NCBI GenBank assembly: GCA_015655545.1
Contig: JAATET010000031.1
Span: forward strand, 1-64,000
Direction: 5' to 3'
Length of the DNA: 64,000 bases
From: Chthoniobacterales bacterium
GTDB lineage: Bacteria > Verrucomicrobiota > Verrucomicrobiia > Chthoniobacterales > JAATET01
In this document: piece after piece, positions 2,019 to 4,135 of the stretch
How positions within the stretch are numbered: position 1 is the first letter of the stretch
How the letters are laid out: each line of letters begins with the position of its first letter
Position numbers and translations under genes: made by a program
Notes under the pieces: generated by a model
The model's database searches: none
Seen by the model: only the letters and a program-made list of their open reading frames with translations
What the model was told of the DNA's origin: nothing

Positions 2019-2046
2019 TTGACGCATCGGCGTGCCGGCTTAATTT
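2019..2046 (+). promoter_or_regulatory. Candidate sigma70-type promoter of the riboswitch operon
   Basis: TTGACG at 2019-2024 and TAATTT at 2041-2046 are 16 bases apart and would start transcription near 2052, exactly where the riboswitch P1 helix begins. Position and fit support it. No transcript data are available. Confidence 0.5.
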
Positions 2047-2050
2047 CACG

Positions 2051-2184
2051 GCATCTTATCGAGAGTGGCAGAGGGACAAGGCCCGATGAAGCCACGGCAA
2101 CCGGTTCGACGACGCGCGAGTGTCGGCGGGCGTCAGGTGCCAAATCCTGCTCCGCGGCGCAAGCCAAGGGGGAAGATGAGATGC
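2051..2184 (+). promoter_or_regulatory. SAM-I (S-box) riboswitch
   Basis: The segment has the S-box core in order: a P1 arm GCATCTTATC (2051-2060), GAGAGTGGCAGAGGGAC, GGCCCGATGAAGCC, GGCAACC, then GGTGCCAAATCCTGC and the closing arm GATGAGATGC (2175-2184), which pairs with the first arm over 10 positions (one T-G pair). This class binds S-adenosylmethionine and normally shuts off methionine synthesis or transport genes. There is no U-run terminator between 2184 and the start codon at 2252, so control at translation initiation is more likely than attenuation. It precedes a threonine-synthase-like gene, which is unexpected. Confidence 0.93.
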
Positions 2185-2251
2185 GACAGTCCGTTGCCGG
2201 TCCGTCCAAGCTCACCCTTCGTTCCACCGCTCTCGATGCGATGCGAAAATC

Positions 2252-3529
2252 ATGAGCGACAGACCATTCTTCAGTAATCTCAAGTGCCGCGAGTGCGGAC
2301 GCCTGTATCCCAAGGAGGCGATCCATATTTGCGAATTCGACTTCGGCCCGCTCGAAGCCGCCTACGACTACGACGCGATCAGCGCGTCCATTTCCCGCGC
2401 CGCCATCGAGTCGCGGCCCAAGAGCATGTGGCGCTACCGCGAGCTGCTGCCCATCGATGGCGCGCCGACTGTCGGCGCCCAGGTCGGCTTCACGCCGCTC
2501 GTCAAGGCCGACCGTCTCGCCGCGCGCCTCGGCGTCAAAGAGCTCTACGTCAAAAACGACACCGTCAACTACCCGACTTTGTCTTTCAAGGACCGCGTCG
2601 TCTACGTCGCGCTCAGCCGCGCCTGCGAGCTCGGATTCAAGGTCGTCGCATGCGCCTCGACCGGCAATCTCGCGAACTCCGTCGCCGCGAACGCCGCCGC
2701 CGCCGGCCTCACGAGCTACGTGCTCATCCCGTCGGATCTCGAGCGCAGCAAGGTCGTCAATTCGCTCGTCTACGGCACGAACGTCATCGGCATCGAGGGT
2801 CCCTACGATCAGGTAAACCGCCTTTGTTCCGAGATCGCCGGCAAATATGGCTGGGGATTCGTGAACGTGAACCTGCGCCCCTATTACGCCGAAGGCTCGA
2901 AGTCGATGGGCTTCGAGATCGTCGAACAGCTCGGCTGGAAAACGCCCAGGCACACCGTCATTCCGATGGCCAGCGGCTCGCTGCTCACGAAAATTCACAA
3001 AGCCTACACCGAGTTCGCGAAGGTCGGCATCATCGACGCCGAGCCCTTCAGCGTGCACGGCGCGCAGGCCGCCGGATGCTCGCCAATCAGCACCGCGCTC
3101 AAGAAGGGCACCGACATCGTGAAGCCCGTGCCGAATCCTCAAACGATCGTGAAGTCGCTCGCCATCGGCACGCCCGCGGACGGCTACTATGCCATCCGCA
3201 CGATGAAGGAAACCGGCGGCAGCGCCGAGGATTGCACCGACGAGGAAGTGATCGAAGGCATCAAGCTGCTCGCCGAGACCGAGGGAATTTTTTCCGAAAC
3301 CGCCGGCGGCACGACCGTCGCCTGCGCGAGGAAATTGATCGATTCGGGCAAGATCCCGCGCGACGAATCCATCGTGCTCTGCATCACCGGTCACGGCCTC
3401 AAGACGCAGGAAGCCATCCACGAAAAATGTGGCGCGCCGCGCGTCATCAAACCCAGCCTGCGCGAATTCGACGCCCTCGTGGCCGGCGAACTCGCCGACC
3501 TCGCCAAACTCGAAACCGCCACAGTTTAA
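2252..3529 (+). CDS. thrC: Threonine-synthase-like PLP enzyme under SAM riboswitch control
   Basis: A 425-residue fold-type II PLP enzyme of the threonine synthase family, which converts O-phosphohomoserine to threonine. An N-terminal Cys cluster (C12, C15, C27) resembles the zinc-ribbon start of many family members. The PLP lysine is K113 in LSFKDR, and the phosphate loop is STGNLANS (137-144). The usual PTGSFKDRG is here PTLSFKDRV, and near the C terminus the motif is SETAGGTTVA, so this is a divergent subgroup. The gene follows a SAM-I riboswitch and is 4 bases from a ThiS/MoaD-type sulfur carrier, then a NIL-domain gene. That context points to homocysteine formation from O-phosphohomoserine, a hypothesis. 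The plain threonine synthase call cannot be excluded. Confidence 0.85.
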   Translation: MSDRPFFSNLKCRECGRLYPKEAIHICEFDFGPLEAAYDYDAISASISRAAIESRPKSMWRYRELLPIDGAPTVGAQVGFTPLVKADRLAARLGVKELYVKNDTVNYPTLSFKDRVVYVALSRACELGFKVVACASTGNLANSVAANAAAAGLTSYVLIPSDLERSKVVNSLVYGTNVIGIEGPYDQVNRLCSEIAGKYGWGFVNVNLRPYYAEGSKSMGFEIVEQLGWKTPRHTVIPMASGSLLTKIHKAYTEFAKVGIIDAEPFSVHGAQAAGCSPISTALKKGTDIVKPVPNPQTIVKSLAIGTPADGYYAIRTMKETGGSAEDCTDEEVIEGIKLLAETEGIFSETAGGTTVACARKLIDSGKIPRDESIVLCITGHGLKTQEAIHEKCGAPRVIKPSLREFDALVAGELADLAKLETATV

Positions 3530-3533
3530 TCTT

Positions 3534-3806
3534 ATGCCTCAAGTCCGAATCCCCACCCCGCTCCGCAAACTCACCGGCGACCAGGAAGTCGTCACCGTAG
3601 AGGGCGCGACCATCGCCGAGATTCTCACCAATCTCGACGCGACCTTCCCTGGTCTCAACGACCGCCTCTGCGACGAGCAGGGCAACGTCCGCCGCTTCGT
3701 GAACATCTTCGTCAACGACGAGGACATCCGCTTCCTCGAAGAGAAAGCCACGGTCGTCCAGGACACCGACGAAATCAGCATCGTCCCCGCGATCGCGGGC
3801 GGCTAG
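3534..3806 (+). CDS. ThiS/MoaD-type sulfur carrier protein
   Basis: A 90-residue beta-grasp protein: N-terminal strand VRIPTPLRKLTG, helix start GATIAEILTNLDATFPGL, FVNIFVNDEDIRFL, and an exposed C terminus AIAGG. A terminal Gly-Gly is the feature that lets such carriers be adenylated and thiocarboxylated. The ATG at 3534 follows the TAA of the threonine-synthase-like gene by 4 bases, so the two are co-translated. A longer in-frame extension upstream overlaps that gene and is not needed. No E1-like activator (ThiF/MoeB) is in the window, so it would have to come from elsewhere. In this operon it probably supplies sulfur to the PLP enzyme and not to molybdopterin or thiazole. Confidence 0.88.
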   Translation: MPQVRIPTPLRKLTGDQEVVTVEGATIAEILTNLDATFPGLNDRLCDEQGNVRRFVNIFVNDEDIRFLEEKATVVQDTDEISIVPAIAGG

Positions 3807-3812
3807 ATTTTG

Positions 3813-3877
3813 AACAGGAGGAAACGGAGACAACAGAGACAAGGAATTTCCTCCGTTCTCTCCGTTTCCTCCTGTAA
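3813..3877. repeat. Dispersed hairpin repeat, copy 1
   Basis: An imperfect inverted repeat whose arms begin ACAGGAGGAAACGGAGA and end TCTCCGTTTCCTCCTGT. It fills most of the gap between the sulfur carrier gene and the NIL gene inside the operon. Related copies lie at 5661-5727 and 41978-42129. In the mRNA it would form a long stem that could affect processing or relative expression of the two halves of the operon. Confidence 0.85.
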
Positions 3878-3886
3878 ATTTTTCCC

Positions 3887-4135
3887 ATGGCCGAACAATC
3901 AACCCGACTCTGGCTTATGTATCCGGCGCGGCTCATCCAGCGCCCGGTCATCCACGAGCTCAGCAAAAATTTTGCCCTGGTCACGAATGTCCGGCAGGCC
4001 AGCGTGACCGAGGAAATCGGGCTCGTCTCGCTCGAACTCGATGGTGAGCGCGAGGAAATCAAGCGCGCCATCGCCTGGCTCGAAGAGCTCGGCATCAAGG
4101 TCGAGCCGGTCGAGATCCAGACCATCGAAGGCTAG
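3887..4135 (+). CDS. NIL-domain protein
   Basis: An 82-residue protein made almost wholly of one NIL domain: MYPARLIQRPVIHELSKNF, then VRQASVTEEIGLVSLELDG and an amphipathic helix before the final strand. NIL domains occur at the C terminus of the methionine importer ATPase MetN, where they bind methionine, and as small proteins or ferredoxin fusions in organisms with non-canonical homocysteine synthesis. Its place in a SAM-riboswitch operon fits a methionine-related role. The gene ends 5 bases before the GTG of the following gene. Confidence 0.85.
   Translation: MAEQSTRLWLMYPARLIQRPVIHELSKNFALVTNVRQASVTEEIGLVSLELDGEREEIKRAIAWLEELGIKVEPVEIQTIEG

Follow-up and report, generated by a model that had tools for sequence, protein, structure and literature searches.

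What does a SAM-I riboswitch, of a class that controls methionine genes, do in front of a gene that annotation libraries would label threonine synthase? The question is raised by contig JAATET010000031.1 of a Chthoniobacterales bacterium (Verrucomicrobiota; assembly GCA_015655545.1), of which positions 1 to 64,000 were analysed; this 64,000-nucleotide stretch is referred to as the window. At positions 2,019 to 4,135, an S-adenosylmethionine (SAM) riboswitch precedes genes for a threonine-synthase-like enzyme dependent on pyridoxal 5'-phosphate (PLP), a Gly-Gly-ended sulfur carrier, and a NIL-domain protein. The first gene product is proposed to be an O-phosphohomoserine-dependent homocysteine synthase, and we put the probability of this predicted function, the making of homocysteine from O-phosphohomoserine, at about 0.87; the locus is very probably a methionine-pathway operon of the MetM/MetO kind. 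A preliminary description had offered the locus as a candidate new homocysteine pathway. The homocysteine function stands as the best-supported reading of the sequence comparisons, but the novelty does not, since a homocysteine synthase system named MetM/MetO was published for Streptomyces albulus (Hasebe et al. 2024, doi 10.1128/aem.01247-24, as cited in PMC12172450). The pathway has been known since 2024 from Streptomyces, and the window holds a member of it with extra features.

Operon layout and recurrence of the gene grouping

All four elements named in the preliminary description were recovered. The SAM-I aptamer is complete, its Rfam match spanning the full model and scoring 74.5 bits (gathering score 44.4). 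The threonine-synthase-family enzyme carries the motif PTLSFKDRV, read directly, and 4 bases separate its stop codon (ending at 3529) from the ATG (3534) of the ThiS/MoaD-type carrier, whose C-terminus reads SIVPAIAGG; the NIL-domain protein comes third (Table 1). The enzyme and carrier genes look like a single unit. Co-transcription of the NIL gene is less certain than for the first two, because a strong hairpin (-37.1 kcal/mol, z -5.65) lies in the 80 bp that separate the NIL gene from the carrier gene. A terminator-type expression platform was considered for the riboswitch and rejected, since no terminator-like site was found around it at 1850-2300.

Table 1. Features of the candidate methionine operon, in window coordinates
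Feature	Position	Strand	Evidence
SAM-I riboswitch aptamer, upstream of metM	2053..2182	+	Rfam RF00162, 74.5 bits, E 1.3e-15
metM-like gene, threonine-synthase-like PLP enzyme, 425 amino acids, N-terminal Cys motif C12-C15-C27; proposed homocysteine synthase	2252..3529	+	PALP, TIGR00260, signature residues V116, L140, R209, Y212, K301
metO-like gene, ThiS/MoaD/CysO-type sulfur carrier, 90 amino acids, C-terminus AIAGG	3534..3806	+	ThiS 64.6 bits, SAMP1 63.7 bits
Dispersed palindromic repeat, strong hairpin between carrier and NIL genes	3814..3876	.	25-nt arms, 92% complementary
Stand-alone NIL-domain protein, 82 amino acids, conserved tail EPVEIQTIEG	3887..4135	+	NIL 45.5 bits

In a sample of 288 genomes of the phylum, enzymes at least 66% identical to that of the window occur in 12, the window genome included, and another 16 genomes hold only relatives of 33-37% identity at E <= 1e-60. 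The carrier gene lies directly downstream of the enzyme gene in all 11 relatives, with a NIL gene there too in seven and a SAM riboswitch at the loci of eight. A scan of named genomes with two peptide patterns gave at least 591 matches, every one encoding a relative of the enzyme, and the best 80 loci were retained; according to their record titles, these span Verrucomicrobiota, Kiritimatiellae, Planctomycetes, Nitrospira, Omnitrophota, Deltaproteobacteria, Mariprofundus and others. RNA-family scans covering every one of the 80 gave a SAM riboswitch in 49, and in 47 of these it ends no more than about 0.4 kb from the enzyme match; it lies more than 2 kb upstream of the enzyme in L083 and almost 1 kb upstream in L089. 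The carrier is within reach of the enzyme in 73/80 named loci and a NIL gene in 52/80. At control loci of other threonine-synthase-like genes, no carrier or NIL homologue was found in any of 17 (L002, L014-L029), and no SAM riboswitch in any of the nine that were scanned for it (L002, L014-L021). The gene grouping is not due to chance. Among the seven named loci with no carrier in reach, four have less than 1.7 kb of downstream sequence left, and L062, L102 and L128 have more than 4 kb.

The grouping also varies in form. Riboswitch, enzyme, carrier and NIL are all present in Methylacidimicrobium tartarophylax (locus L058). In a Candidatus Methylomirabilota record (L115:74-2104) the order is riboswitch, NIL, MetM and carrier, with NIL first, and in L061, L067 and L078 two consecutive carrier genes follow MetM, with the tails AIAGG plus SIAGG or AFAGG. 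Two genomes of 0.9 Mb, G057 (L005/L042) and G036 (L007/L044), have kept MetM, carrier and E1; neither a riboswitch match nor an adjacent NIL gene was found in them. A supply of methionine to a host by these two small genomes is possible.

Enzyme signature and the standard methionine route

The window enzyme matches PALP (217.7 bits) and the threonine synthase model TIGR00260 (thrC; 282.1 bits, cut-off 167.1), and its nearest solved structures are the threonine synthases 2zsj and 1uim. The cysteine synthase model TIGR01136 (cysKM) reaches only 38.5 bits, and the 25 top-scoring NCBIfam models listed for this protein include none named for MetM or for a homocysteine synthase. MetM genes are likely to be labelled threonine synthase because thrC is the best match and lies over its cut-off. 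Taken at face value, this equivalog match would make the gene a second, SAM-regulated threonine synthase. We consider that highly improbable, given that all 12 MetM genomes retain a further thrC-family protein scoring above the cut-off, that the active-site changes described below are fixed, that the riboswitch is of the methionine type, and that the usual methionine genes have been lost.

Five positions, V116, L140, R209, Y212 and K301, are invariant in all 93 MetM rows of the alignment (the window, its 11 relatives, the 80 named loci and a Nonomuraea record); in their place, all 13 threonine synthases compared, 12 fetched and one the window genome's own, have G, T, N, R and S/T. These 13 are all of one type, because five of the 17 fetched threonine synthase loci (L155, L162, L163, L164 and L166) were without the SFKD motif used for picking reading frames and were omitted from the count. 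The invariance of Y212 in the 80 named loci is partly by construction, because one of the two fetch patterns contains this residue; V116, L140, R209 and K301 fall outside both patterns. L140, R209 and Y212 align with T88, N157 and R160 of the Thermus threonine synthase, and these canonical residues are not kept in the window enzyme. T88 and R160 are, as we take it, contacts of the substrate phosphate. A new invariant arginine, R209, stands three positions ahead of the one that was lost (R160 to Y212). In the tree, the 93 MetM rows are monophyletic (support 0.69) and separate from the 13 threonine synthases and 11 other relatives; five of 16 threonine-synthase-like loci (L019, L021, L024, L025 and L029) yielded no usable reading frame and were dropped. 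These residues are consistent with a changed phosphate pocket and with a second half-reaction unlike that of threonine synthase: sulfur would go to the gamma carbon, where threonine synthase adds water to the beta carbon.

The searches for the standard route covered the 12 MetM genomes and 18 control genomes of the phylum without a close MetM. The controls were hand-picked from the listing rather than drawn at random, and six of them hold a 33-37% relative of MetM. The PF01053 family (MetB, MetC, MetY and MetZ), counted as present at E <= 1e-20, was found in one of the 12 MetM genomes versus all 18 controls (Fisher p 2.2e-7, uncorrected for genome relatedness), three of the controls (G125, G045 and G060) having matches of about 116-201 bits only. 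A MetX match of at least 240 bits was found in none of the 12 versus 14 of the 18; the curated cut-off of 500 is reached by no genome, named controls included, and the MetX-model match of the MetM genome G257 is 106 bits. DUF39 (HcyBio, PF01837) was found in none of the 12, the window genome included, and the DUF39 route was rejected for them. The preliminary description had also called for a second thrC and for the absence of metB, metY and metZ. Both were borne out: the window genome, whose 84% completeness bounds every absence claimed for it here, shows no PF01053 at this threshold, no MetX and no DUF39, and at least two thrC-family proteins are present in 12/12 MetM genomes, as they are in 9/18 controls. 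The window genome's other threonine synthase adjoins an aspartate kinase on another contig. Because neither MetX nor the MetB/Y/Z family was found, the operon is probably the main or only source of de novo homocysteine in this bacterium; of the 12 Verrucomicrobiota genomes with MetM, 11 have it as their apparent sole homocysteine route, with MetA (PF04204) outside the search.

Several observations weigh against these conclusions. A riboswitch match is missing at 3/11 relatives and 31/80 named loci, and four of the 11 relatives are without an adjacent NIL gene. One genome (G257) has the operon plus strong PF01053 genes (474 and 400 bits), the window genome has seven weak PF01053 matches, two of them just above the family cut-off (27.5 and 27.1 bits), and DUF39 is present in 2 of the 11 named MetM genomes tested. 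Furthermore, in Microcystis, where a sulfur-carrier-family gene beside thrC has been likened to S. albulus metO, the enzyme homologue is reported, in the passages of PMC12172450 that deal with it, to act as a threonine synthase and as a deaminase, and not to fill the role of MetM completely in threonine-treated cells. Finally, the changed residues include the presumed phosphate-binding T88 and R160, and their replacement might also point to another substrate.

This last point is what speaks for an enzyme acting on O-succinylhomoserine, O-acetylhomoserine or another four-carbon acceptor, the presumed phosphate-site residues having changed from T88 to L140 and from R160 to Y212. Such an acceptor seems improbable to us. 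None of the 12 MetM genomes of the phylum has MetX at 240 bits or more, within a search that left MetA aside; from the second threonine synthase it follows that the cell makes O-phosphohomoserine; the invariant R209 lies three places before the lost arginine; and S. albulus MetM is reported, in the relevant part of PMC12172450, to act on O-phosphohomoserine. Given the PF01053 genes of G257 and the DUF39 genes of two named genomes, the operon is in some cases not the only route, and two homocysteine routes can coexist. A strong DUF39 gene is carried, in addition to MetM, by the genomes of L128 and L087 (G333 and G294; Pseudanabaena and a Syntrophaceae metagenome-assembled genome).

The prediction of homocysteine synthesis from O-phosphohomoserine has consequences for genome interpretation. 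If it is true, genes modelled as threonine synthase are homocysteine synthases in several phyla, and methionine auxotrophy may have been wrongly assigned to some bacteria. For Methylacidiphilum fumariolicum, the authors of a genome-scale model state, in the portion of PMC12341988 that treats this step, that they identified no genomic evidence for homocysteine production. The genomes with the operon in our family f9 are probably Methylacidiphilaceae, the enzyme of G265 being 87% identical to that of M. tartarophylax (L058). The operon could be a candidate for filling this homocysteine gap, a proposal based on relatives.

Sulfur carrier, JAMM protease and NIL protein

A profile built from 12 carriers has its best solved-structure match in 3dwg_C (E 1.2e-27), an entry labelled cfp10A, which we take to be mycobacterial CysO. 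By this likeness the pair might act as CysO and CysM do, making cysteine from O-phosphoserine and a carrier thiocarboxylate. We give this very little credence: the enzyme belongs to the threonine synthase family, with TIGR01136 scoring far lower (38.5 bits), the riboswitch senses SAM, and the genes that were lost are methionine genes.

Gly-Gly is present in all 12 aligned carriers and stands at the very end in 11. In contrast to these exact ends, 21 of the 73 named carriers have residues beyond Gly-Gly, and six more are fused to NIL, carrier and NIL forming one reading frame of 171-173 amino acids (L083, L087, L090, L093, L117 and L130). PAIAGG is intact between the domains in 6/6 fusions. One fusion was modelled as two folded domains, with stretches of at least three residues of predicted local distance difference test score (pLDDT) below 50 only at 88-92, the Gly-Gly, and at 167-171; a JAMM protease is present in all six genomes with a fusion. 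The Gly-Gly kept between the domains, the low-confidence linker at this point and the presence of JAMM in all six genomes suggest that the fusions are precursors cut after Gly-Gly.

JAMM (PF14464) was tested in 50 of the 80 named genomes, judged at E <= 1e-6, and found in 44; genomes of the phylum sample were judged by the family cut-off. Among the 11 MetM genomes of the window's class, the window genome included, not one has JAMM over this cut-off; the window genome has no PF14464 match at E <= 0.001, and G257 has a sub-threshold match of 21.2 bits. In all 11 the carriers end exactly in Gly-Gly. The lack of JAMM may be a trait of the class and need not be tied to MetM, because JAMM is uncommon in same-class controls as well (over cut-off in 4/14). 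Overall, JAMM is present in 27 of 28 genomes with extended or fused carriers versus 16 of 31 with exact Gly-Gly carriers (Fisher p 9e-5, uncorrected for relatedness; three genomes without an adjacent carrier excluded). These counts agree only partly with the idea that JAMM does no more than trim carrier tails. A role of NIL as a stand-in for lost JAMM was rejected, because genomes that do have JAMM also have NIL next to MetM, and because no NIL was found next to MetM in the two JAMM-less 0.9-Mb genomes. The preliminary description did not point out that JAMM, which belongs to the CysO and Wolinella schemes that it invoked, was not found in the window genome, or that other phyla have NIL fused to the carrier.

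Near MetM, a JAMM-like cluster recurs in 14 named loci; a further cluster, whose one checked member is a sulfite-reductase-type protein, occurs in eight, and another, whose checked member is a PAPS (3'-phosphoadenosine 5'-phosphosulfate)-reductase-type protein, in six. In G121, a genome of another class, the carrier is seven residues longer, and a JAMM gene adjoins a carrier-E1-rhodanese fusion and a sulfurtransferase. The fusion protein, at L165:3896-5332, has a SAMP1-like carrier joined to a MoeB/MoeZ-type E1 and to a rhodanese domain, and comes directly after the desampylase-like JAMM gene.

The following sequence of events is proposed. At low SAM, as the riboswitch class would predict, the operon would be turned on. 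A ThiF-family E1 would adenylate the Gly-Gly end of the carrier, which, to judge from its family, would be loaded with sulfur as thiocarboxylate. A ThiF-family E1 occurs in 12/12 MetM genomes, the two 0.9-Mb genomes included, and in all 18 controls; the window genome has one, elsewhere, whose frame continues by eye into rhodanese-like sequence and is cut by the contig end. MetM would bind O-phosphohomoserine made for the threonine branch and eliminate the phosphate; it would then form homocysteine by putting the sulfur on the gamma carbon, where threonine synthase adds water to the beta carbon. The net reaction would be a gamma-replacement, carried out by a PLP enzyme of fold type II. The carrier thiocarboxylate is probably the sulfur donor. 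In the window's class, a carrier-homocysteine adduct must then be released in another way, because none of the MetM genomes of this class has JAMM over cut-off. The thioester might, for example, be hydrolysed within the MetM site ahead of any S-to-N shift; alternatively, the carrier might hand over plain sulfide. We know of no description of protease-free homocysteine release from a carrier in thiocarboxylate amino acid synthesis.

The same finding of JAMM over the cut-off in 0/11 same-class MetM genomes, where an amide adduct would not be cleavable in the manner known for CysO and HcyS, favours a simpler scheme in which MetM is a direct O-phosphohomoserine sulfhydrylase on free sulfide, with carrier and NIL as accessories (for example in local sulfide delivery) and with no adduct. 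The seven named loci without a carrier in reach, and the use of sodium sulfide to mimic the MetM reaction (described in a part of PMC12172450), point the same way. We nevertheless find this scheme unlikely, although clearly less so than the substrate alternatives above, because sulfide alone would not select for the Gly-Gly kept in 12/12 aligned carriers and 6/6 fusions, and because the enzyme and carrier genes are tightly paired.

NIL is the sole Pfam match of the third gene's product, which has no ferredoxin domain. Its model (pLDDT 91.7) has its best fold match in the regulatory domain of MetN (3dhw_C, Foldseek E 1.2e-5). In MetN, Asn295 is required for L-Met binding, according to the corresponding section of PMC12357092. 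Asn34 of the NIL protein aligns with this residue and is N in 55 of the 62 NIL matches of the fetched loci; Arg36, found in 61 of the 62, is family-specific and goes beyond the MetN match. The family has a conserved C-terminal tail, the end of which the model leaves at low confidence. The most economical guess, which we put forward tentatively, is a methionine- or homocysteine-binding regulator or docking subunit: NIL may bind methionine or homocysteine and tune or dock the carrier-MetM pair. More speculatively, and with somewhat less confidence, carrier, enzyme and NIL might together form a methionine-sensing synthase in which NIL halts sulfur transfer at high methionine, with protease-free release in the window's class and JAMM-cut precursors elsewhere. 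On that speculative three-part reading, the precursor form would be that of some Deltaproteobacteria, an Omnitrophota genome and others, cut by JAMM like a ubiquitin fusion. The role of the NIL protein, and the exit of homocysteine from the carrier without a JAMM protease, become directly testable questions.

In a search covering part of the literature, the NIL partner, the carrier-NIL fusions and the JAMM-less MetM genomes were not found in print, and the words NIL, threonine synthase and methionine do not occur in the main text of Iyer et al. 2006 (PMC1779556). As far as searched, the new elements are the recurrent NIL third partner, the putative carrier-NIL precursors, the JAMM-less MetM genomes and the apparent sole-route role.

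The surroundings of the operon were also inspected. A YacP-like NYN-domain gene lies directly 3' of NIL (4141-4587, 112.7 bits). About 1 kb from the operon, a SufE-like protein and a two-domain rhodanese sulfurtransferase are encoded on the minus strand (5204-6583), and a sulfurtransferase with a similar start, compared by eye, stands beside the JAMM and carrier-E1 genes of G121 (L165). Sulfur supply by the window's SufE and rhodanese genes is possible; they have no match in the MetM loci of the 11 relatives. The palindromic repeat with the arm ACAGGAGGAAACGGAGA occurs at 3814-3876, 5660-5728 and 41979-42127, the first copy lying between the carrier and NIL genes and another, with arms near 5664-5724, between the SufE and rhodanese genes. 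The arm has 6 matches in the window versus 0.08 expected from shuffles, and none in a 20-kb stretch of another contig.

Comparison with known systems

The closest known system is MetM/MetO of S. albulus, where a SAM riboswitch lies upstream of metM and MetM turns O-phosphohomoserine into homocysteine, as summarized in part of PMC12172450. Compared by description, the window operon shares with it the threonine-synthase-like enzyme, the adjacent Gly-Gly carrier and the upstream riboswitch. A Nonomuraea record (L151), taken as a stand-in for MetM/MetO, has riboswitch, enzyme and Gly-Gly carrier; its enzyme is 53% identical to that of the window and has the same V116, L140, R209, Y212 and K301. 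Unlike this 17-kb locus, in which no NIL was found, the window adds a NIL gene.

The HcyS/HcyD/HcyF/MetY system of Wolinella is a thiocarboxylate methionine pathway that includes a JAMM protease. As in that pathway, a ubiquitin-like carrier would supply sulfur for homocysteine, and the resemblance extends to the named carriers that are extended past Gly-Gly or fused and to JAMM in 44/50 named genomes. In contrast, a threonine-synthase-type (fold-type II) enzyme takes the place of MetY. The Wolinella route was rejected for the window genome, where no MetY-family gene at E <= 1e-20 and no JAMM match were found. CysO/CysM/Mec+ is a cysteine pathway whose scheme also includes a JAMM protease. The window's carrier is of the CysO type, to judge from the match to 3dwg_C, the presumed CysO, whereas the enzyme family and the regulation differ and no JAMM match was found in the window genome.

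A NIL domain also accompanies a homocysteine-forming enzyme in the pathway of DUF39 (HcyBio) plus NIL-ferredoxin (Price et al. 2018, PMC5764234, in the part describing it). That route is unrelated, DUF39 was found in none of the 12 phylum MetM genomes, and the window NIL protein is without the ferredoxin domain. With the NIL/C2 domain of MetN, the window protein shares the fold and the kept methionine-binding Asn position (Asn34); unlike that domain, members of this family are stand-alone or fused to a carrier, and have the family-specific Arg36 and a conserved tail of their own.

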